DNA from: a virus
Virus record (IMG/VR): IMGVR_UViG_3300021956_000036
Span: 1-36,109 of that record
Length of the DNA: 36,109 nt
Reading direction: 5' to 3' (one strand)
The notes below the pieces were generated by a model. That model did not search any database. It had not been told where the DNA came from and saw nothing but the letters and a program-made list of their open reading frames with translations. Within the stretch, counting starts at the first letter, position 1. Every line of letters begins with the position of its first letter. Positions 2,239 through 25,752 of this stretch are shown in pieces. The translations under genes were made by a program, and so were the position numbers.

Positions 2239-5200
2239 TTAATTTATTTTAGCTTTTAATTCGTCTAATTCTTTTTCTAAAGTTTCAATTTTAGCCATTG
2301 CCTCTTGTAGTACTTTAATTGTAGCGTGATGCAAGTCAGCAGTGTAAACTGATTTTAAAGGAACTCCATCTTCTGGTGTTTCTCCCCATCCGTCAACATC
2401 AATAAACTCTGGTGCTACTTCTTCTACTTGTTGAGCAATTACACCAATATTAAAATCATCGTGAGTTTGGTCTTTATACTTAAACTTAACAATTTCAATA
2501 GCTTTAAACTTATTCCAATAAGATTCTAAAGGAATTATGTCTTTTTTAGTTCGTTTATCAGATAAGTTTGCATTATTTGATTGATAGTTTGCTATACCAC
2601 CATTTGAATAAACTATAAATCTTGCAGCGACATTATCATCACCATAAAATAAATAGCTTGATGAATTATTAGGTGATTGATTTTGTATAGTTGATAAAAT
2701 ACCATAACATTGACCACTTGATGGTGTTATTCTCGATATTATAGCCCATGTAGCAGCAGATGATTGAGCTAATTCAAATTTACCACCTCCTGATGTTAAA
2801 CCTAAAAATAAATTACCCCCACTTGTAATACGCATTCTTTCTGTATTGTTCACAGTAAAGGTCATTGGATTTGCACTACCATTACATATGTCTAATGTTC
2901 CAACAGAATATAATTGAGAATATGATGAGCCACTTGTATAAAGTGCAGCACCTAACACATCTGAAGCAGCTAAGTTTACTATTGAACTACTTGTACCATT
3001 AACTGTTAATACTGTTCTATTGGTTGCAGTTTGTAATGGCGATGTAGTTCCTATACCTACATTGCCAGTAGAACCTTTAATGAATAATCTTGTAGTACCA
3101 GCGTTATCAGTATCAAATAATAAATCTTTATCATTACCACTTGCTCCAAATGTTCTAATCCTTGATTGGTTATCTTGTACCACACATTCAAAAGTATTTC
3201 CTGTTCTTATTAATTTTAAAGAAGTATTTGTTGCTCCAACTGTTGAAGTTATATTTCCAGCAGTATCTAAAGTGCTTGAGAATGTAGCTGCACCAGCACT
3301 TGCTAATGTTAATGCACCATTTACTAAACCAGTATTGAATATTAAAGCACCATTATTATTTGTAAATCTTAATGATGAATCTGAATTTATATAACTAATG
3401 CCACTAACATTAAATCCAGTTTGTAAGAATCTTAATGTTACATTACCAGTAGTGTTTGATTCAATAGCTAATATTGGAGCAGTACCAAATACATGAAGTC
3501 TATAAGAACTATTTGCTATACCTCCAATACCTAAGTTACCATTTGTATCCAAACGCATCTTTTCGGTAGAGTTATATGCCCATATTGTAGCACCAGTTTG
3601 GTTATTGATAACAAAGTCTCCAGCTACCGAACCAGTAACAAACTGATTGTTTGCAGTTGCTAAACCAAACTTAGCTTGATAAATAGAACCAGTAATAGCT
3701 TCTCCCATTGAAACCGATGGAGCAGCACCACTCAATCTTAAATGTGTATCAGCAGTTGCAGAATACACCTCTAATGCTCTTTGTGGGTTTGTTAAACCAA
3801 CTCCCAATCTTGAGTTAGTATTATCCCAATATAAATTAGTATTACTTGATAAAGATGATGAACCATCCCAAAATGCAACTCTTGTTGCAGTTCCACTACC
3901 AGTTACAGTTCCAACACTCCAAGACCTATTCGCACTCAAATCTTGTGTCGTTCCGTTGATAGTAATTGTTCTTGATGTTGGCACATAGCTACTCAAAGCA
4001 GATGGTGCAACATAATCAGTACCAGCAACCGCAGCAGTTAAAACACCGCTTACAGTCTTTAACATAGCATCTGATATATTAGATTGCCATATAGTTCCGT
4101 TACTTGAATTAACTCTAAAATTCTCTGTTGAGTTTGTTACAACACTAAAGTCGCCTAATGAAGAAACTCCAATTGGACCTTCAAGGTTTCTAATTGTAAA
4201 ATTGCTATTGTTTAGTAAGTATAAATATGCTCCGTTTGTGTTTCCAGTTCCACTTGCCGTATTATGAAAACCTAAACCAGCAGCAGATGCACCACCAAAA
4301 ATATCGATACCAACCGAACCTACACCGCTTGGACTTGCCGTTGGTGTTAAGATGTTAAATCCAAAGTTACCAGCCTCCGTTAAAGTAGCATAACCAGTTT
4401 GATTGAACAAGGTTAAGTTACGAGCAGATGCCGTTCCAACCTTAACAGTTTCAATTGTGTTTCCGTATGTAGAGTTGATGCCGAATCCTAAACCATTGTA
4501 GTTTGTTTCAGAGTTCTTTAATAACAAAGAATAACCGCTATCAATTCCAGCATTAGCACCTATTGTCGCATTTGGACTTGTAGTATTAACACCTAATCTT
4601 TTATTAGTTGAACTATAATAAAAAACAGAATCGTATGTCAAGTTACTTGAACTATTCCAAAATGCAACGCTATCAGCAGAGCCAGAGCCAGTTGTTGTAC
4701 CAACAGACCAGCTTCTATTTGCACTTAAGTCGTATGTTGTACCATTTATAGTTAATGTTCTACTTGTAGGAACATATCCGCTTAAAGCACTTGGAGCTAC
4801 ATAGTCTGTTCCTGCTACTGCGGCAGTAAGCACACCACTAACTGTTTTTAATAAAGCGTTTGGTATGTTTGATTGCCAAATTGTACCATCAACAGAGTTT
4901 ACTCTAAAGTTTTCAGTTGAATTAGTTACAACGCTAAAATCTCCCAAAGAAGATGCACCGATTCCACCTTCAAGATTTCTTAAAGTGAATGTGCCAGTAT
5001 TTGTTAAATATAAATAAGCACCATTGGTATTACCAGTGCCACTTGCTATATTATGGAATCCAATAGATGCAGCTTGTGAATCTCCGTAAATATCAATCCC
5101 TTTTGAACCAATTCCACTCGGACTTGCAATCGGACTTAAAATATTAATACCAAGATTGCCACCTTCAGTTAAGCTAATATATCCGCTTTGGTTTAATAAA

Positions 5201-6519
5201 GTCAAGTTTCTTGCAGCAGCAGTACCTAACTTTTGTGTTTCAAATGTATTCCCATAAGTCGTATTGATACCAAAACCAATTCCGTTATAGTTAGCGTCTG
5301 CGTTTTTAAGTAATAATGAATACCCACTATCAATAGAAGCGTTTGCTCCAATAGTAGCATTAGGCACAGTTGTATTTACACCAAATCTATTTGTTGATGA
5401 ATCATACATAAATCCATTTTCATTGCCTAAAGTGTAAGTTCCAGTATAATAAGGGATATTACCAGCCGTTCCACCACCGCTTAAAGGAGTATATCCTAAA
5501 GCTGTTGGGATTGACTTAGCTTCCCATAAAGAGTTTGAGCTATTATAAAATAAACCATCGTTATTAGATGGTGTTTGAGCAGATACATTGTGTAACTCAT
5601 CTAATTCATATCCGTTTTGAATTTTAACCTCAACAACTCCTTGCGTCGGATGGCTTCTTACCACAATACCTACATAAACCAAGTGAGCAGGTGCGTATTG
5701 CTTTGTTGAAGTCCAAGCACCAGCCGTTGTAGAACTTAAATACAATTGAGTTCCTTCAGTGTATGCTTGAGTATCTATGTCTTGCAATCTACCAGCTACA
5801 ACAACATAACCATTATTCATATTAGTTATGTCCGCTTGTACAACTCCATAAGTTTGAGCCGAAGTTGCATCGCTTGTAGCCAATGCCTTAGTAATACTTG
5901 GTAAGTTACCTTGACCTCCGTTAATATAAACAACAGTTCCCTTTGTTAAGGTAGCACCACTTTTATTGTAAACTTCAGTTACTAAGTTTTGTGCTTGAGA
6001 AATAATAGAAGGAAAAGTAGCTAATGTACCATCTCCTTTAACATATTGAGCACCTGTACCAGCAAAACCTATATTGATAGTTCCTGATGTCGTAATTGGT
6101 GATCCAGTGATTGTTAAGGCATCTCCACTCTCTGTAACAGCAACTGAAGTAACGCTACCACTTGAGCCACTTGCTCTTTGCCATATAGTTCCACTATATA
6201 ATACTTGGTCACCTACATAAAAGGTAATAGGACCAGCACCGAAGTTAACTGTTCCTGCCACATTACAAACATAAACATCACCAGCATTACCAGTTCCGTT
6301 AGCTAAAGTAGGAGTGTTAGTAGAAGCATCCCAAGTACCCTTGTACTCCATTACAGAGTTAGGTAACTGAGACACTAAAATCTTACCACTGCCATCTAAT
6401 TGTGGAATACCATCTGGAACATTTATGCCTAAAGAAGAAACTACACCACTTGTACCTGTTAACACACCTTCTAAGTTCCTTACTTTGGCACCGCCAGTTA
6501 TTTGTATTTGATTCGACAT
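2239..6519 (-). CDS. Tail fibre / receptor-binding protein with S74 intramolecular chaperone (1426 aa)
   Basis: The largest gene of the window. The N-terminal region (1-250) is glycine/threonine-rich beta structure (SVTSVAVTESGDALTI type repeats). Two long near-repeats of about 245 residues follow, each beginning GVNTT.PNATIGANA and ending near NRSWSVGT and VAFW. Further short repeats of the RLGVGLTNPQ, GNLGIGG and GNVGIGTTSP kind are typical of phage fibres. The C-terminus from Ser1320 (SDKRTKKDI, then IGVIAQQVEEVAPE) is a Peptidase_S74 chaperone domain, which trimerises the fibre and cuts itself off immediately before that serine. It should mediate host adsorption. The duplicated shaft probably extends its length and offers sites for recombination. 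Confidence 0.93.
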   Translation of the reverse strand: MSNQIQITGGAKVRNLEGVLTGTSGVVSSLGINVPDGIPQLDGSGKILVSQLPNSVMEYKGTWDASTNTPTLANGTGNAGDVYVCNVAGTVNFGAGPITFYVGDQVLYSGTIWQRASGSSGSVTSVAVTESGDALTITGSPITTSGTINIGFAGTGAQYVKGDGTLATFPSIISQAQNLVTEVYNKSGATLTKGTVVYINGGQGNLPSITKALATSDATSAQTYGVVQADITNMNNGYVVVAGRLQDIDTQAYTEGTQLYLSSTTAGAWTSTKQYAPAHLVYVGIVVRSHPTQGVVEVKIQNGYELDELHNVSAQTPSNNDGLFYNSSNSLWEAKSIPTALGYTPLSGGGTAGNIPYYTGTYTLGNENGFMYDSSTNRFGVNTTVPNATIGANASIDSGYSLLLKNADANYNGIGFGINTTYGNTFETQKLGTAAARNLTLLNQSGYISLTEGGNLGINILSPIASPSGIGSKGIDIYGDSQAASIGFHNIASGTGNTNGAYLYLTNTGTFTLRNLEGGIGASSLGDFSVVTNSTENFRVNSVDGTIWQSNIPNALLKTVSGVLTAAVAGTDYVAPSALSGYVPTSRTLTINGTTYDLSANRSWSVGTTTGSGSADSVAFWNSSSNLTYDSVFYYSSTNKRLGVNTTSPNATIGANAGIDSGYSLLLKNSETNYNGLGFGINSTYGNTIETVKVGTASARNLTLFNQTGYATLTEAGNFGFNILTPTASPSGVGSVGIDIFGGASAAGLGFHNTASGTGNTNGAYLYLLNNSNFTIRNLEGPIGVSSLGDFSVVTNSTENFRVNSSNGTIWQSNISDAMLKTVSGVLTAAVAGTDYVAPSALSSYVPTSRTITINGTTQDLSANRSWSVGTVTGSGTATRVAFWDGSSSLSSNTNLYWDNTNSRLGVGLTNPQRALEVYSATADTHLRLSGAAPSVSMGEAITGSIYQAKFGLATANNQFVTGSVAGDFVINNQTGATIWAYNSTEKMRLDTNGNLGIGGIANSSYRLHVFGTAPILAIESNTTGNVTLRFLQTGFNVSGISYINSDSSLRFTNNNGALIFNTGLVNGALTLASAGAATFSSTLDTAGNITSTVGATNTSLKLIRTGNTFECVVQDNQSRIRTFGASGNDKDLLFDTDNAGTTRLFIKGSTGNVGIGTTSPLQTATNRTVLTVNGTSSSIVNLAASDVLGAALYTSGSSYSQLYSVGTLDICNGSANPMTFTVNNTERMRITSGGNLFLGLTSGGGKFELAQSSAATWAIISRITPSSGQCYGILSTIQNQSPNNSSSYLFYGDDNVAARFIVYSNGGIANYQSNNANLSDKRTKKDIIPLESYWNKFKAIEIVKFKYKDQTHDDFNIGVIAQQVEEVAPEFIDVDGWGETPEDGVPLKSVYTADLHHATIKVLQEAMAKIETLEKELDELKAKIN
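3862..4597 (-). repeat. Tail fibre internal repeat, unit B
   Basis: Approximate limits of the downstream of two tandem coding repeats in the fibre gene. It encodes a segment from GVNTTSPNATIGANAG to VAFWDG. Its partner is unit A at about 4651-5391. The proteins are very similar but the DNA differs at many third positions, so the duplication is not recent or the copies are kept apart at the DNA level. Confidence 0.75.
4651..5391 (-). repeat. Tail fibre internal repeat, unit A
   Basis: Approximate limits of the upstream coding repeat (GVNTTVPNATIGANAS to VAFWNS), about 245 codons, directly followed by unit B. Shared landmarks in both units are IDSGYSLLLKN, ASGTGNTNGAYLYL, SSLGDFSVVTNSTENFRVNS and LTAAVAGTDYVAPSAL. 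Codon choices differ strongly between the two units. Confidence 0.75.
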
Positions 6520-14015: not shown

Positions 14016-15182
14016 TTAAGCTACATTACCGAAATCTCCGTAGCAGAATGCACCTGCGTAGTAGATTGGGAATGCGATACGAGCTTCAACTCTTACAGTA
14101 ATCATGTTCTCTACGAAGTTGTTACCATCGAACTCAGAGAAACGCACAGAGATACCATCTCTTTGCATGATTTGAGCACCCATAGACCAGTCACCAACTA
14201 AAAACTTGTCAGCAGCGATTGCTGTAGAAGTATAAACTGGGATACCAGCGATAGATAATTGACCGTTAGTAGTAACTACTGTAGAACCTGGTAAAGAGTA
14301 AGCAGCGTTAGTAGGCTTAGTATTTACGATGTTAGCCCAATCAGTTGGGTTAATCAAGATACCAGTAGCACTATAGTTAGAAGCTTCGATTTGTGCGATA
14401 GCTTGTACTAATTGCTCTACGTCTACAGTTGCAGCACCAGCGAATGCAGAAGCAACACCAGTAATACCTTGTAAGTTAGGAGCAGTACCGTTACCACTTA
14501 ATAATTGAGCATCTTCAGCAACTAAATATTTTTCTAACAATCTTTGTTGTAAGAAAGAAGTCATTGCTGGGATATCGTCTAACATTTGACGAGAAATCTT
14601 AACATAACCAGCGATAACTTGTGCAGGAGCATTAGTCATAGTGATATCGAAATCAACTTGAGCTTTAGTGCTACCTTGAGTTTGAGCTGCTGGAGCACCT
14701 TCACCACCTGTTTCAAGAGGGAAAGTAAATAAACCTTGAGAAATTGAACCTACTGGTAACAAACTTCTAACGTGTACTTTACGAGAAGGTAAACCATAAA
14801 CTTGGTTAGCGTAAGCACGAGGAATATCACCTGTTAAGTTAGCAGCTTCAGTCATGTTGCCAACTGTTTTTGTGTCCATTACAAATGCGTGGTTCTTAAT
14901 TTCACCAGCACCTAATTTGCCTAATACATCGGCATTCTTTTCAATTGCTTCAGCTAAAGCACCATTGAAACCTTTTACTTCGTTTTGATTCATTTTAATA
15001 CGATTTGATTTTGCCTCTAATTTGTCTGCAGCATCTTTAACTACAGCAACTTGAGATTTTAATTCTTCTAATTCAGATTTAACTGCATCTACAGCAGTTG
15101 CGTTTTCAGCTTTCACAGCTTCAAATTCACCTTTAATTTCGGTTTTGATGCCTTCGAAAGCACTTTTAATTTCTTCTACCAT
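14016..15182 (-). CDS. Major capsid protein, HK97 fold (388 aa)
   Basis: The N-terminal 65 residues are a charged coiled coil (VEEIKSAFEGIKTEIKGEF and so on), corresponding to the delta/scaffold domain that is normally removed by the prohead protease. The mature part has HK97-family features: VHVRSLLPVGSISQGLF, VIAGYVKISRQMLDDIPAM, a long domain with LLSGNGTAPNLQGI, INPTDWANIVNTK and a C-terminal ITVRVEARIAFPIYYAGAF. The length fits Phage_capsid. The gene is directly downstream of the protease, and a strong terminator follows. Confidence 0.95.
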   Translation of the reverse strand: MVEEIKSAFEGIKTEIKGEFEAVKAENATAVDAVKSELEELKSQVAVVKDAADKLEAKSNRIKMNQNEVKGFNGALAEAIEKNADVLGKLGAGEIKNHAFVMDTKTVGNMTEAANLTGDIPRAYANQVYGLPSRKVHVRSLLPVGSISQGLFTFPLETGGEGAPAAQTQGSTKAQVDFDITMTNAPAQVIAGYVKISRQMLDDIPAMTSFLQQRLLEKYLVAEDAQLLSGNGTAPNLQGITGVASAFAGAATVDVEQLVQAIAQIEASNYSATGILINPTDWANIVNTKPTNAAYSLPGSTVVTTNGQLSIAGIPVYTSTAIAADKFLVGDWSMGAQIMQRDGISVRFSEFDGNNFVENMITVRVEARIAFPIYYAGAFCYGDFGNVA

Positions 15183-18983: not shown

Positions 18984-20120
18984 CTATACAACCCATCCTC
19001 TTTTCGGTTTAGCAAATTTTGTGTATATGGCATACCTCATTGCATCCATTAAGTGGTCTCGATATTTCACAGGCTCATCTAATTTGTTGCCATCAGGATC
19101 AGTTTTCCATTTGTAGTTTTTAATCTCATCAAGTAAGTCTAACGAATCACTCTTCACTACTAACGGAAATGATTTTACTTTATTTATTCCTGCAAACACA
19201 TCCTTTACTGCACTCTTCAAATTAAACCCTGCTTTGTTTACTTCCGATATTGTTTTCGGTTCCGCAGGATCGGCATATATCTCCGATGTCCTATCAAGCC
19301 CCAATGCCTTCATTCGGTCAATTAAAAGGGCTGTTGACATTTTAGTGTCGTAAATGAGCTGGTCCACATACATTTCGTTATCGTAGAATTTGACACGAAC
19401 GAGTGCTGTCTGATTGTTAAAGCCAAAGTCCAAACCATAAAATATATCCCCTCCTTCTGGGAAGTTTCGTCTGCGTTTCCAATGAGTATAAATAGTCGCT
19501 TCAGAGATGGCTCTTTCTCCTAAACCATAAACACGCCAATATTGATGGTCGGCATCTTTAAGCCTTTCGATTTCATCTATGATAGCTTTTTCTAAAAAGG
19601 GGTTGTCCTTATATGTTGTGATGGTAAAATCCACATCTTCACGAGGAATTACCTTTTCATATATCCAAGAGTAGTAATCCGATGGGTTATAGTCAATAAC
19701 AATCTTTTCGGTTGTACGAAGGGCTAACTGCATCCAAGATTCGTAGTTGACCTCATTCGCCTCGTTGATGAAAAGATAGTTACGCTTACGACCTCTGATT
19801 TTTTGAGGCTGGTCGGTAGACACGAACTCTACGGTGTTTCCACCTAGAAAGTATAAACTTTCTGATTTGTTGTGTTTGTCCTCTGAGTAAAGCCCATACT
19901 TCGAAAGTATCTCTATGAAGTCTCTCATTACAGAACCCTTGATAGACGGTAGCGAGGAACGGCAGATAGTCAGTGTCTTTCCCTTTTCTTGGAGTAGTTT
20001 GACGATAAACCATGTCAAGATATTGTATGTCTTGCCACTTCTTGTTCCTCCTTGCATAACTGAAATCTTTTTTTGACTTTCTTGCAAGATTTGGAATACT
20101 TTGTTGGTTGTTACATTCAT
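18984..20120 (-). CDS. terL: Terminase large subunit (378 aa)
   Basis: Packaging ATPase and nuclease. Walker A is GGTRSGKT (residues 24-31), Walker B is YLFINEA (115-121) with the catalytic Glu120. The nuclease domain has acidic residues in GLDFGF (Asp231), YADPAEP (Asp284) and RDHLMDAMRYA near the C-terminus. This is the Terminase_3/6-type arrangement and the protein is slightly short for the family. It starts at ATG 20118-20120. A 164-base gap with inverted repeats separates it from the small subunit gene. Confidence 0.95.
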   Translation of the reverse strand: MNVTTNKVFQILQESQKKISVMQGGTRSGKTYNILTWFIVKLLQEKGKTLTICRSSLPSIKGSVMRDFIEILSKYGLYSEDKHNKSESLYFLGGNTVEFVSTDQPQKIRGRKRNYLFINEANEVNYESWMQLALRTTEKIVIDYNPSDYYSWIYEKVIPREDVDFTITTYKDNPFLEKAIIDEIERLKDADHQYWRVYGLGERAISEATIYTHWKRRRNFPEGGDIFYGLDFGFNNQTALVRVKFYDNEMYVDQLIYDTKMSTALLIDRMKALGLDRTSEIYADPAEPKTISEVNKAGFNLKSAVKDVFAGINKVKSFPLVVKSDSLDLLDEIKNYKWKTDPDGNKLDEPVKYRDHLMDAMRYAIYTKFAKPKRGWVV

Positions 20121-20975: not shown

Positions 20976-21478
20976 ATTATATTTATTTTTAATGTGTCTA
21001 TTACAAAATAAAAAAAATCAAAATACAAAAAAGTTAAAACAATTGTTTGGTATCAGAATTTTAGGGGGCACAAGCCACTCCCCTATTCTTTTACACGAAC
21101 AAAAAGGGTAGGGGGTGCATACCATTTAGCTTATAGATAATATTATGTTAAATAGCCTCTCTCCCACCCTCTTCACTTAGGGCAAAGCTAATGATTAATT
21201 TTATGACTTGCAACTTACTCAAATGCGACAACTAACCCACAATAGACCTAATATAGTTATAATACACTAATACACTATATCTATATTGTATATAGTTTAT
21301 ATACATTGTATATCTACTATATAGAATATACAATATATATTTTATAAGGTATATGATACAATACATTGTACAATACAATCCATATATACTATATATCATA
21401 TATCCTGTACAGATAAAATACTTTTAAACTTTTTTATACTTTTTTATAATTATTTAAACTAATTGTATTAATTTAGCC
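20976..21478. other. Divergent control region, AT-rich, no gene
   Basis: This 500-base gap separates the leftward late operon from the rightward early genes. The left part contains a hairpin (TAGGGG 21062-21067 with CCCCTA 21080-21085, inner GGC/GCC) and further G-runs. From about 21236 to 21420 it becomes extremely AT-rich with repeated ATTGTATA-type words in both orientations. The right end (21421-21478) is a T-rich stretch leading to TTAATTTAG just before the first early ORF. Divergent promoters are expected here, and an origin is possible. Confidence 0.6.
21282..21380. repeat. Cluster of ATTGTATA-type inverted repeats
   Basis: Visible copies: ATTGTATA near 21285 and 21304, the inverted TATACAAT near 21328, forming ATTGTATAT / ATATACAAT around a 12-base loop, and the 10-base palindrome ATTGTACAAT near 21364. 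GTATATA/TATATAC is another inverted pair near 21288. The density is well above what AT content alone would suggest to the eye. Such clusters serve as operator arrays or origin iterons. Confidence 0.5.
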
Positions 21479-21625
21479 ATGTCAACAAATATAAAAATAA
21501 TCAATGTTCAAACATCAATTATGCAAAATCTATCTACAATCATCCAAATCACAGGAGCAATTTTATACTTTGTTTTTTGTGTCAATGTCATCAAATTAAT
21601 CATTAATCAATTCAAAAATCATTAA
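21479..21625 (+). CDS. Small membrane peptide (48 aa), first gene of accessory cassette
   Basis: ATG at 21479, TAA at 21623-21625. One hydrophobic helix spans about residues 20-42 (IIQITGAILYFVFCVNVIKLII) flanked by polar ends, the last being NQFKNH. Codons for isoleucine are mainly ATC and for serine TCA, as in the following three genes and unlike most of the genome. No known family. It may anchor or regulate the cassette products or act at the membrane by itself. Confidence 0.55.
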   Translation: MSTNIKIINVQTSIMQNLSTIIQITGAILYFVFCVNVIKLIINQFKNH

Positions 21626-21627
21626 TC

Positions 21628-21741
21628 ATGGGAACTACAATCACACTAGCAGAATTAATCGCAATCCTTGTCATCACTCTTCCTGTGTATGCATTAGGAA
21701 AGACAATCATTGAGTCAATCAAAGAAAAAAATAACCATTAA
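21628..21741 (+). CDS. Small membrane peptide (37 aa), second gene of accessory cassette
   Basis: Starts two bases after the stop of the preceding ORF. A single hydrophobic segment at residues 4-23 (TITLAELIAILVITLPVYAL) is followed by a charged tail KEKNNH. ATC-rich codon use matches the neighbours. Not recognised. The close pairing of two membrane micro-peptides ahead of two larger genes suggests one transcription unit. Confidence 0.55.
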   Translation: MGTTITLAELIAILVITLPVYALGKTIIESIKEKNNH

Positions 21742-21761
21742 TCAAATCAAAATCAAATCAC

Positions 21762-23372
21762 ATGAGAACTATCAAAGAGTGGTATGAATTGCTACCACAA
21801 TCAATCAAAGAAAAAGCAATAGACAATATTGTAATTCAAAAAAATGTTGAGTACCTTAATGGATATCATACAGAGACTTTAAAAGATGCTGTAAATTGTT
21901 TCACATGGTCAAATACTACTCAAGGTCAAGAGTATTGGAGTATGGTATATGAGGATTGTAAATTTGATGTTTATTCTCCATCCATTGTGTACTCTTCATC
22001 TTTTTTAAGGATGTTGAGAACTATTTGTGAGACTAGTCAAGTTGCACAGATATTAAAAATGAAGCAATACTCTACTCACACAGATTTTGCGAACTACATT
22101 ACCATGAGAGGTGAGATGGGTAGTTACTTGCCTAATGGTAGACAGCACAAAATCACAGATGAGGGAAAGTGGAGTAGAGATGGTAGACAAGAGATGAAGA
22201 TTGCCAAATTGGCTAGAAAGTTGATAAAGCAATCATACCTTGATGATTTGACGGATGCAGATTTTGAAAAATTCACTAATTGTGTTAAGTCATACATATC
22301 AATGATAGGTGATGAGGATGGCAATGGTAAAAAAATTGAATTGAGACTAATTAATGGCACAAAAATATATGATGCATATGATGAGGATAATTACAGCAGG
22401 ATTTTAGGAGTTGAGACAAATTTGTGGGGGAGTTGCATGAGACATGAGAGCTGTCAAAATTATCTTGACATCTATGTTGACAATACAGATGTATGTCAAT
22501 TATTGATTGCAGAGGATAAAGAGGGATTGATTTTAGGTAGAGCATTAGTGTGGAAGCTAGATGATGGCAGAGTTGCAATGGATACAATCTATGCACATGA
22601 GTCAATCAAAGAGTCATTTGTTAACTATGCTATTGAGCATGGATGGTATTACAAATCATCACAATCATGTCATCATCATTCATTTGATAGATTTGAGGGC
22701 AAGTTTAATGAGGATGCAAGTAGAAAGGAGGCAAGAGTTACTCTTAAACATTTTAGATATAGTGAATTTCCATACATGGATAGTTTATACAATTTGAGTG
22801 AGTCAGGAGTATTGAGCAATCATGAGTTCAAGTGCAATTATAAGATTTTGAGAGACACAGGAGGAGGATATGAGGATGGAGGTATGATTGAGTGTGAGTG
22901 GACAGGAAGATGGATTTGTGAAGATGATAGTACCTATATTGAGTATGAGAGACCTAATGGTCAACACTTTGAGGGAAGAGTGAGTGATGATGAGGTAGTA
23001 TACACAGCAGATGAGCAATATGTACTTAGTGTTGATGCAGTTGAAGAGTATAGTACAGGCAGTTGGTATTTGAGAAATAGTGATGAAATATGCTCTGTAC
23101 CATCAAGAGACGAATATAGATTTGTTGATGATTGTGTGTATAGTGATTATTTGCATGAGTGGATATTGAGTGAGGAAGCAGTTGAGACAGGTGATGGCAA
23201 AATCATGCATGAGGATAGTGTATTTGAGTGCTGTGTTGATGGTAAGATGTATGATGATGATGAACACATGACAGAGGAAATAGATGGTATTTTATATAGA
23301 TTTTATCAAGGAAATCAGGAGCAATTTTATAATCAATTTAAATTAGAAAGCAATGAGACAGGAGTTAATTAA
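21762..23372 (+). CDS. Modular phage protein of unknown function (536 aa)
   Basis: The N-terminal 60 residues (IKEWYELLPQSIKEKAIDNI, then TLKDAVNCFTWSNTTQGQEYW) resemble a domain that I recall from the N-termini of many phage ORFs (AF.W..T.QG..FW). The middle (about 225-310) has GSCMRHESCQNYLDIYVDN, LILGRALVWKLDDGRVAMDTIY and YAIEHGWYYKSSQSC. The C-terminal 150 residues contain repeated acidic beta modules (WICEDDSTYI, VVYTADEQYVL, WILSEEAVETGDGKIMHEDSV). No catalytic motif was identified. Glutamate is mostly GAG here while neighbours mostly use GAA, suggesting acquisition. Its end overlaps the peptidase start by 20 bases. Confidence 0.85.
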   Translation: MRTIKEWYELLPQSIKEKAIDNIVIQKNVEYLNGYHTETLKDAVNCFTWSNTTQGQEYWSMVYEDCKFDVYSPSIVYSSSFLRMLRTICETSQVAQILKMKQYSTHTDFANYITMRGEMGSYLPNGRQHKITDEGKWSRDGRQEMKIAKLARKLIKQSYLDDLTDADFEKFTNCVKSYISMIGDEDGNGKKIELRLINGTKIYDAYDEDNYSRILGVETNLWGSCMRHESCQNYLDIYVDNTDVCQLLIAEDKEGLILGRALVWKLDDGRVAMDTIYAHESIKESFVNYAIEHGWYYKSSQSCHHHSFDRFEGKFNEDASRKEARVTLKHFRYSEFPYMDSLYNLSESGVLSNHEFKCNYKILRDTGGGYEDGGMIECEWTGRWICEDDSTYIEYERPNGQHFEGRVSDDEVVYTADEQYVLSVDAVEEYSTGSWYLRNSDEICSVPSRDEYRFVDDCVYSDYLHEWILSEEAVETGDGKIMHEDSVFECCVDGKMYDDDEHMTEEIDGILYRFYQGNQEQFYNQFKLESNETGVN

Positions 23373-24303
23373 TGTACTGAGTGTACAGAGTGAGTCATAT
23401 GATAGTACAATGATGGAGCAATATATAGTTGAGCAGATTGAGTCATACGGATTGACTCCAATACATGACAAAGGAAATATCTATTGTGTTAAGGGTATTG
23501 CAGATGCATACCCATGTATTGTGTCTCACATGGATAGTGTACACAAAATCATCCCAAATGACCACTACAAAATCATGCATGATGATAACTATGCAATGGG
23601 ATTGAATACAGCTACCATGAAGCCTACAGGATGTGGAGGTGATGACAAAGTGGGTATCTATGCTTGTTTAAGATTATTGCAAGAGTATGAGTGTATCAAA
23701 GTAGCTTTTTTTAGAGATGAAGAGGTGGGATGTGATGGTAGCTATGATGCAGATGTTGAATTTTTTAAGGATGTAAGATTTGTGTTGCAATGTGATAGAA
23801 GAGGTAATGAGGATTTTGTGAGTGAGATATATGGCACTCAATTACAGAATAAAAAATTTAAAAAGCAAGTATCACCACTATTGAGAAATCATGGCTACAA
23901 ATTTAGTTCAGGGATGTTGACAGATGTATATGCACTAACACAAATTGGAGTGAGTGTATCAGTTGCAAATATTTCCTGTGGATATTACAATCCTCACATG
24001 GATGATGAGATTGTTGTATTTGAGGATGTTGAAAATTGTGTTGAGCTGTGCAGAGAAATATTTGATACCATGCAAGAAACTTATCCTGTACAGAGACACA
24101 AATCATACAAAAAGTCATCAAAACATCAATACAGCAAGTATTCATACCAATGGGATGATATTGACACAGGATGGGGAGTAGGTGATTATAAGAGCATGGA
24201 AATCTGTGAGGGATGTAATGAGTGGAAATACCTCAAGGATATTAAGTATGTGGACAGGTATAGTACATATATGTGTAAGGATTGTGTTGAGGTATATATG
24301 TAA
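23353..24303 (+). CDS. Clan-MH zinc peptidase (M20/M28/M42-like) with C-terminal zinc ribbon (316 aa)
   Basis: The complete set of metal and catalytic residues of co-catalytic zinc exopeptidases can be seen: SHMDS (His59, Asp61), GGDDKVG (Asp97/98), DEEVG (Glu123/124), CDRRG (Asp148) and NPHMDDE (His215). Motifs are closest to PepT (GADDK) and M42 (DEEVG). Only about 66 residues separate Asp148 from His215, so the lid/dimerisation domain of M20 enzymes is absent or tiny. Residues 285-311 add CEGC...CKDC, a probable zinc ribbon, after a basic YKKSSKHQY linker. It likely hydrolyses a peptide or peptide-like amide bond in the cytoplasm; no signal peptide. Translationally coupled to the 536-aa gene and followed by a terminator. 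Confidence 0.85.
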   Translation: MRQELINVLSVQSESYDSTMMEQYIVEQIESYGLTPIHDKGNIYCVKGIADAYPCIVSHMDSVHKIIPNDHYKIMHDDNYAMGLNTATMKPTGCGGDDKVGIYACLRLLQEYECIKVAFFRDEEVGCDGSYDADVEFFKDVRFVLQCDRRGNEDFVSEIYGTQLQNKKFKKQVSPLLRNHGYKFSSGMLTDVYALTQIGVSVSVANISCGYYNPHMDDEIVVFEDVENCVELCREIFDTMQETYPVQRHKSYKKSSKHQYSKYSYQWDDIDTGWGVGDYKSMEICEGCNEWKYLKDIKYVDRYSTYMCKDCVEVYM

Positions 24304-24328
24304 GTCAAAATCCATACAATAATTGACA

Positions 24329-24356
24329 GGGGTGCATCAAAAGTGCATCCCTTTTT
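24329..24356 (+). terminator. Intrinsic terminator after accessory cassette
   Basis: Stem GGGGTGCA / TGCATCCC (24329-24336 with 24344-24351, one G-T pair), 7-base loop, then TTTTT. It lies 26 bases after the peptidase stop and closes the cassette as a separate transcription unit. Confidence 0.8.
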
Positions 24357-25213: not shown

Positions 25214-25411
25214 ATGATTGAGGTAAAGGATTATAGATCCATGATAAGACATGGAGACATCAAAAAACTCATGCAACTAACAGGCTTGAGTAGGTATTTA
25301 ATTGAGACAAGAATTGAGAAAGGCGATTGGGAAATGCACGAAATCCTAAAAACCTATTTTGAGAAGAGATTAGAGACATTAAAAAACCAATTATGGGAAA
25401 ATCAACATTAA
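25214..25411 (+). CDS. Small helix-turn-helix-like protein (65 aa)
   Basis: The segment IKKLMQLTGLSRYLIETRIEKG (about residues 17-38, two pieces) has the spacing of a helix-turn-helix, and the C-terminus is a charged helix. It overlaps the DnaA-like gene by 19 bases. It may be a transcription factor of the early region or an accessory factor of replication initiation. This is inferred from the helix pattern only. Confidence 0.6.
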   Translation: MIEVKDYRSMIRHGDIKKLMQLTGLSRYLIETRIEKGDWEMHEILKTYFEKRLETLKNQLWENQH

Positions 25412-25752
25412 CATATTACGTTATTCCAGGCTTAAAGCTTAAAAAGGTAAGGTTTCAGCGTGTTATTATGGCTGTAGCTGAATCTTTTGATATAAGTCCT
25501 AGATTAATGATGAGCAAGAGCAGACAAAGAGAATTAGTATTGGCAAGAAATATGTGTATGTACGTTATGAAAACATACTTTAACATGACACTAAAAGAAG
25601 TAGGATTAGCGTTTAACAGAGACCACACGACAGCAATCCATGCCATTAGAATGTTTAAACAAGATAGAGAGGTAAATGAGCACTACCAAAAAATCTATGA
25701 TGAACTTAAACAAAAATTAGAACTTAGAAAAGGAATTGAACTTATTAAATAA
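25393..25752 (+). CDS. Stand-alone DnaA domain IV-like DNA-binding protein (119 aa)
   Basis: Residues about 30-95 match the DNA-binding C-terminal domain of DnaA (Bac_DnaA_C): SKSRQRELVLARNMCMYVMK, then MTLKEVGLAFNRDHTTAIHA. The DHTTAIHA segment (77-84) is the signature helix-turn-helix loop that reads DnaA boxes. There is no AAA+ ATPase part. Such solo domains occur in phages of Bacteroidota and may bind the origin, recruit helicase loaders, or compete with host DnaA. The gene is in the replication operon close to the A-tract array. Confidence 0.88.
   Translation: MGKSTLTYYVIPGLKLKKVRFQRVIMAVAESFDISPRLMMSKSRQRELVLARNMCMYVMKTYFNMTLKEVGLAFNRDHTTAIHAIRMFKQDREVNEHYQKIYDELKQKLELRKGIELIK

Follow-up and report, generated by a model that had tools for sequence, protein, structure and literature searches.

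Among the closest described relatives of the system considered here are the M20/M42-type exopeptidases (PepT, TET, LysK and DapE), and related phage proteins have been collected as PHROG_4191 ('peptidase', category other), a library entry that names no partner or function. We analysed the 36-kb virus record IMGVR_UViG_3300021956_000036 (all 36,109 nucleotides, hereafter the window), in which a PHROG_4191 member is coupled to a gene for a 536-amino-acid (aa) protein, here called the SCM protein. The window peptidase shares the predicted fold of the M20/M42-type enzymes and all seven of their metal-binding and catalytic positions, and differs from them in lacking the lid/dimerisation domain and carrying an added C-terminal zinc ribbon. 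PHROG_4191 also contains proteins of the Klebsiella phage KP34 gp11 type. The same place beside them is taken by PHROG_6980 or PHROG_13313 (unknown function, KP34 gp10 type), which have the SCM core and the C-terminal region in common with the 536-aa protein; their N-terminal regions are long and different, and the similarity is remote.

The two window genes and their overlap are as follows.

21762..23372, + strand: 536-aa SCM protein, with an N-terminal helical domain, a GNAT-like core and C-terminal beta modules in the AlphaFold2 model
23353..24303, + strand: 316-aa M20/M42-type di-zinc peptidase of PHROG_4191 without a lid domain, assigned by profile and fold match
23353..23372, + strand: 20-bp overlap between the two genes, identical in length in close relatives

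Co-occurrence of the two families across phages and probable conjugative elements

Members of the two families are found together, in most cases as coupled genes, both in phages from several bacterial phyla and on probable conjugative elements of Bacteroidales. Profiles of both were run over 177 loci. For the 81 metagenomic virus loci that were anchored on (fetched by) the peptidase, a partner was counted when it lay within 60 bp on the same strand; 59 carry the 536-aa family in this position, 54 in the order of the window and five reversed, and 28 of them overlap. The remaining 22 loci are largely one group with differing neighbours. All seven records of at least 20 kb with a non-adjacent peptidase carry the partner elsewhere, and the records that are negative for the partner are all shorter than 20 kb. 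The sequence-only reading of the window had counted wide separation of the two large genes in relatives as a point against a joint system; these figures mainly favour such a system, since most pairs are adjacent and the longer unlinked records keep both genes.

Adjacent pairs are also found in cultured phages: Klebsiella KP34 (gp10/gp11) and RCIP0104, Vibrio NS8, Pectobacterium PPWS1 and Gaspode, and Bradyrhizobium BDU-MI-1, with the order swapped in Cellulophaga phi38:1 and Calle_3. Both families are present in huge phages as well. Profile comparison links the Klebsiella-type protein with the family of the window protein (probability 93.6, E 2e-7), and a fold search with the 536-aa protein against viral models returned Klebsiella KpV48 (E 2e-11) and Vibrio DE17 (E 8e-12). 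In Thermus P74-26, gp1 is a clear member of the 536-aa family (probability 97.9, E 5e-13) and lies about 29 kb from the peptidase gp54, so that both are retained while unlinked; ten Thermus records were matched by each of two protein searches. Record counts for the two families in a phage collection, sorted by host name, are 230 and 231 for Klebsiella, 42 and 42 for Vibrio, 10 and 10 for Escherichia, 4 and 4 for Shigella, and 7 and 7 for Cellulophaga. The distance matrices of 60 non-redundant pairs correlate with r 0.78, a value reached in none of 2000 permutations, which shows that the genes travel jointly and does not by itself establish a functional link.

A scan of chromosome contigs with the phage-type alignment found nothing, and the Bacteroidales loci were found with the conjugative-element protein as query. 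There are ten such loci, two on plasmids (Parabacteroides and Phocaeicola) and eight on chromosomes in seven other genomes, and in all ten the peptidase gene directly follows the larger gene, with gaps of 1-12 bp or an overlap. The larger protein has 409-479 aa and matches the window family (probability 99.4, E 3e-21); its partner is an M42-like peptidase (Pfam E 3e-8) with a weak NCBIfam match to TIGR03106 (E 3e-4). On the Parabacteroides plasmid, genes for DUF4120, DUF4121 and an N-6 DNA methylase lie upstream of the pair and a DUF3872 gene lies beyond it, neighbours that we take, given the usual setting of such genes, to mark a conjugative element. This type occurs in only 2 of 393 Bacteroidales genomes and is therefore not a housekeeping system there. 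On the Phocaeicola plasmid (L189 in our numbering of loci), two different M42-like peptidase genes (48-929 and 4336-5265) flank the SCM-family gene. The chromosome of Phocaeicola vulgatus ATCC 8482 carries the pair twice (L190 and L193), consistent with two integrated elements.

The two proteins and their locus

The window peptidase matches PHROG_4191 over residues 2-271 of 316 (E 5.7e-55), and its Pfam matches remain below the cut-offs. Its model, with a predicted local distance difference test score (pLDDT) of 91.2, has the M20/M42 catalytic-domain fold, aligning with PepT 3gb0 over 231 residues (Z 27.5, root-mean-square deviation (rmsd) 2.3) and with LysK 5xoy and M42 TET at Z 24. Residues H59, D61, D97, E123, E124, D148 and H215, which are all the metal ligands and the catalytic acid, are invariant in 43 peptidase sequences; judged by this conservation, the protein keeps a complete predicted di-zinc exopeptidase active site. 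In the fold alignments, residues 1-243 of the model span chains of about 370 residues and the model shows no further domain, so the lid/dimerisation domain typical of M20 enzymes is missing. The paired CxxC motifs near the C terminus recur in 105 of 133 peptidases.

The SCM protein found no named family in profile libraries, PHROG and Pfam included. Its AlphaFold2 model has a mean pLDDT of 92.0 and a predicted template modelling score (pTM) of 0.61. The regions referred to below, together with the ribbon of the peptidase, are:

21762..21971, + strand: SCM protein residues 1-70, small helical domain matching PHROG_25460 (E 6e-7)
22329..22835, + strand: SCM protein residues 190-358, GNAT-like core, from Foldseek and VIA-align of the model
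22431..22439, + strand: invariant motif Ser224-Cys225-Met226
22869..23306, + strand: SCM protein residues 370-515, repeated acidic beta-hairpin modules, from the secondary structure of the model
24196..24300, + strand: C-terminal zinc ribbon of the peptidase (C285, C288, C308, C311), at least 90% conserved in 43 sequences

Foldseek rows from the Protein Data Bank (PDB) for the model are nearly all GNAT acetyltransferases, FemX included (best E 1.9e-3), and VIA-align superposes residues 190-358 on a GNAT over 113 residues with modest scores (Z 6.9, rmsd 3.5). We call the protein GNAT-like rather than GNAT because the fold scores are modest and the acetyl-CoA loop is not conserved; alignment columns 273-290 instead conserve M-D-(R/T)-(I/V)-Y..(D/E)..F..A, without a glycine motif. 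Across 75 sequences Y206, L221, S224-C225-M226, R260, W264, D274, Y277, P337 and D340 are invariant, and the SCM motif with an Arg-Ala (or Arg-Gly) step is retained in the Klebsiella, Vibrio, Pectobacterium, Bradyrhizobium and Thermus members. The model supports a GNAT-like core built around an invariant SCM/R/W/D/Y set.

The domain of residues 1-70 is a separate gene just 3' of the peptidase in six loci (L010-L012, L038, L039 and L124) and further downstream in three (L150, L159 and L160). Its occurrence near the peptidase in fused or separate form is a sign, by fusion and fission, that it belongs to the same system. Examples of the stand-alone genes are L010 5989-6315, L038 5126-5377 and L159 4242-4631. 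Residues 370-515 align with the C-terminal part of the Klebsiella-type and Enterococcus proteins. The Enterococcus protein H1_1 shares this region and an SCM, its core failed to align with the profile, and it is no more than a possible member. A likeness seen by eye suggested that the modules of the larger protein and the C-terminal end of the peptidase have a zinc ribbon in common, which is not claimed; a profile of the peptidase ribbon gave no match to the larger family at domain E <1. In one locus (L044 4665-6682) the homologue is present as two open reading frames (ORFs) with a gap, which may reflect a frameshift, a natural split or an error in the assembly. Huge-phage records hold up to 14 tblastn places each for the 536-aa family, and a 636-kb phage (LR756504; L018 4478-39252) has five paralogues within 40 kb together with two M20-type peptidases.

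In the window, the pair ends a group of four rightward genes. The other features of this group are:

21220..21478, strand not assigned: AT-rich leader (20% GC) 5' of the rightward genes
21479..21625, + strand: ORF for a 48-aa micro-peptide with a single transmembrane (TM) segment, from the ORF list
21628..21741, + strand: ORF for a 37-aa micro-peptide with a single TM segment, from the ORF list
24328..24352, + strand: intrinsic terminator-like hairpin of 10 pairs followed by a T run, fitting in position

The tight spacing noticed in the sequence-only reading is real (intergenic distances of +2, +20 and -20 bp, in order), as is the hairpin and T run behind it. The location that was described, next to the replication block, is likewise borne out by the flanking annotation, the group lying between a leftward packaging and head block and the rightward replication block: leftward genes include those for terminase, portal and major head proteins, and rightward ones encode a replication-initiation protein and a DnaB-like helicase. 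A promoter-like site (10/12 match) lies at 21423-21450 inside the AT-rich leader, and with 23 promoter matches across the region against 26.9 in shuffles there is no excess and this site alone is no evidence. Two terminator-like hairpins were found in the region where 1.6 were expected by chance; the one at 24328-24352 fits in position. The two TM peptides, the large pair and the terminator are probably one transcription unit ahead of the replication genes. Further along, at 25393-25752, lies a gene for a 119-aa product of PHROG_16091 (function not known), which to our eye resembles the C-terminal DNA-binding domain of DnaA.

Both micro-peptides, which had been proposed to be membrane peptides, have a single strongly hydrophobic stretch of 19 residues (Kyte-Doolittle 2.25 and 2.26). 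The 48-aa peptide matched no PHROG family and no Pfam family above its cut-off; the 37-aa one is similar by eye to the 30-aa MNTHITIIELALLF... peptide of L001, L002, L003 and L007. A small TM peptide occupies the equivalent position in close relatives only (L001-L003, L007, L105-L107 and L111), and in more distant carriers of the large pair other genes stand there. A self-contained cassette of four genes was consequently too strong a description, as relatives conserve only the two large genes as a unit, and the membrane peptides cannot be counted in the widely conserved system. It may be that they are co-transcribed with the pair and have no part in the conserved function. An exclusion system based on the membrane peptides was rejected on the same ground.

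Codon use had been read as setting the group apart through GAG for Glu and ATC for Ile. The first part holds, GAG accounting for 75% and 73% of the Glu codons of the large genes and 0.15-0.5 in most longer window genes (short exceptions reach 0.75). The second fails for the large genes, where the ATC share of Ile codons is only 0.21 and 0.35 and ATT leads; ATC is frequent, by eye, only in the micro-peptide genes. A second bias that the earlier reading did not mention is TTG, with 0.47 and 0.40 of Leu codons. The total codon distance of the large genes (z 10.3 and 5.0) is not unique in the window, as terminase, major head and tail genes reach z 10-19. The major head gene (14016-15182, z 18.6) and the large terminase gene (18984-20120, z 12.6) deviate at least as far as the pair. 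The GC content of the genes is 0.35, like that of the remaining window.

Proposed function and competing explanations

The two neighbouring genes probably do one job together. The combination of a transferase-like protein with a hydrolase that breaks amide bonds suggests the addition and the removal or trimming of an acyl or aminoacyl group. Our leading reading, which we hold tentatively, is that the core is a two-gene mobile-element module whose transferase-like and hydrolase enzymes act on one substrate and are used early. The larger protein would be an N-acyl- or aminoacyl-transferase-like enzyme modifying an amine of a peptide or protein, the peptidase would remove or trim its product, and early expression would change a protein of the host (or of the incoming element) during establishment.

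Published phages give some indication of where such a module might act. In Pectobacterium phages the pair lies in the early region (PMC6115819). In Klebsiella fHe-Kpn01 both homologues were detected by liquid chromatography-tandem mass spectrometry (LC-MS/MS) (PMC7291057; record MN380459), and the record, on the strength of LC-MS/MS on purified particles, annotates them as virion-associated. Also listed for these particles are the phage RNA polymerase, exonuclease, endonuclease VII, scaffold, maturases and endolysin; with RNA polymerase, nucleases and scaffold among the entries, the data therefore show expression better than location. The toxicity screen of fHe-Kpn01 excluded virion-detected unknowns and genes of predicted function, and hence both homologues (PMC7291057). 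A small early gene two genes 5' of the pair (gp10, L198 2710-2919) is reported to be toxic in E. coli (PMC7291057). Early position, particle detection and the occurrence in two sorts of invading element together point to the element-host interface, and from the presence on phages and conjugative elements a role there is at most plausible. A more specific form, a counter-defence or host-modification system common to both kinds of element, in which a host protein or peptide would receive a group from a Cys-containing GNAT-like transferase and the lidless di-zinc peptidase would remove or process this group, seems possible and rather doubtful.

Several observations weigh against the two-gene module. 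Neither the record tallies nor the matrix correlation are phylogenetically independent. Of 32 larger-family records, 17 have no detectable peptidase, fragments included, and some of these are 117-204 kb long. The larger family is present in many copies in huge phages, and Bacillus, Brevibacillus and Lactococcus phages have distant PepT-like peptidases that lack the partner. The GNAT match at Z 6.9 is weak, the tool regarding Z <8 as possibly a common arrangement only, and the canonical acetyl-CoA loop (R/Q-x-x-G-x-G/A between beta4 and alpha3) is not conserved.

Amino-acid or peptide salvage, in which a PepT-like peptidase would release amino acids from host peptides to supply phage protein synthesis, with the larger protein as its regulator or scaffold, is unlikely. 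It draws on the nearest solved folds, PepT and the tripeptidases (Z 27.5 and 27.0), and on the PepT-like peptidases that do without a partner in unrelated Bacillus and Brevibacillus phages. A scavenger, however, needs no conserved partner whose SCM/R/W/D/Y core is kept from Thermus phages to conjugative elements, and on the latter freed amino acids would be of little use.

Transferases with related folds are used in phage DNA hypermodification, and the pair adjoins an N-6 DNA methylase gene on conjugative elements and lies near replication genes in the window and in Autographiviridae. The GNAT-like enzyme might accordingly put an aminoacyl or acyl group on a modified base for the hydrolase to trim. 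We consider this improbable: the window genes checked include no base-hypermodification genes, and fHe-Kpn01 DNA is cleaved by at least eight endonucleases (PMC7291057).

Proteins associated with the virion, or injected and acting on entry, would account for the annotation of the fHe-Kpn01 homologues, and presence on phages and conjugative elements fits entry together with the DNA. This too is improbable, since the particle list probably includes cell proteins that were carried over and the genes lie in the early rather than the late region.

Rac, a phiKMV-like GNAT, sets off the cleavage of the alpha subunit of RNA polymerase (PMC7552054); Drulisvirus, Maculvirus and Phimunavirus are members of the same virus family. 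A Rac-like acetylation of host RNA polymerase that results in its cleavage, here by the phage's own peptidase, is nevertheless a very improbable account of the pair. Rac (LUZ19 gp28) shows no sequence relation to the 536-aa family (hhalign probability 0.1), has an acetyl-CoA pocket that is not evident in that family, adjoins the late block and relies on host proteases; moreover, an internal cut is not expected from an exopeptidase.

That the two are unrelated accessory genes, neighbours by chance in this phage, could appeal to their codon bias and to the frequent shuffling of phage accessory regions, and is hardly credible, since the two genes stay adjacent or are retained together in different phyla and types of element, the co-occurrence refuting it as a general account.

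Comparison with known systems

Rac was considered as the same protein as the SCM protein and rejected on the hhalign result. It remains of interest as a phage GNAT that acts on the host, in the virus family of the Klebsiella carriers; its sequence is unrelated, and the part of PMC7552054 available describes no phage peptidase partner for it. Searches against the PADLOC anti-phage defence families gave no matches for six proteins at E 0.1. A carrier system of the LysW/LysK kind was suggested by a 'LysW' label on a Vibrio record and weak LysK-type matches; neither a carrier protein nor an ATP-grasp ligase was found, and it serves as an analogy only. The NAGGN osmoprotectant system combines an M42 peptidase with a synthetase that forms amide bonds and is partly GNAT-containing. 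Unlike NAGGN and other amidoligase/peptidase sets, the annotated neighbourhoods of the pair that were examined hold no ATP-grasp or amidotransferase partner. An open-literature search met the pair or the peptidase only as catalogue-type entries, an absence that is no proof of nothing having been published.

The pair is annotated as 'hypothetical protein' and 'peptidase' in hundreds of sequenced phages, among them Klebsiella phages under study for therapy. Once it is connected between phages from several phyla and the conjugative elements of gut Bacteroidales, these two separate annotations become a single system that can be tested and has a defined signature, with Thermus P23-45 and Cellulophaga phi38:1 as harmless model phages. 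In its predicted fold, the core of the larger protein (residues 190-358) is like the GNAT-fold transferases, FemX among them, whereas in place of their R/Q-x-x-G-x-G/A loop the family has the invariant SCM, R, W, D and Y. Set beside the systems described so far, the folds of the two enzymes are known ones, and their pairing and setting are undescribed.

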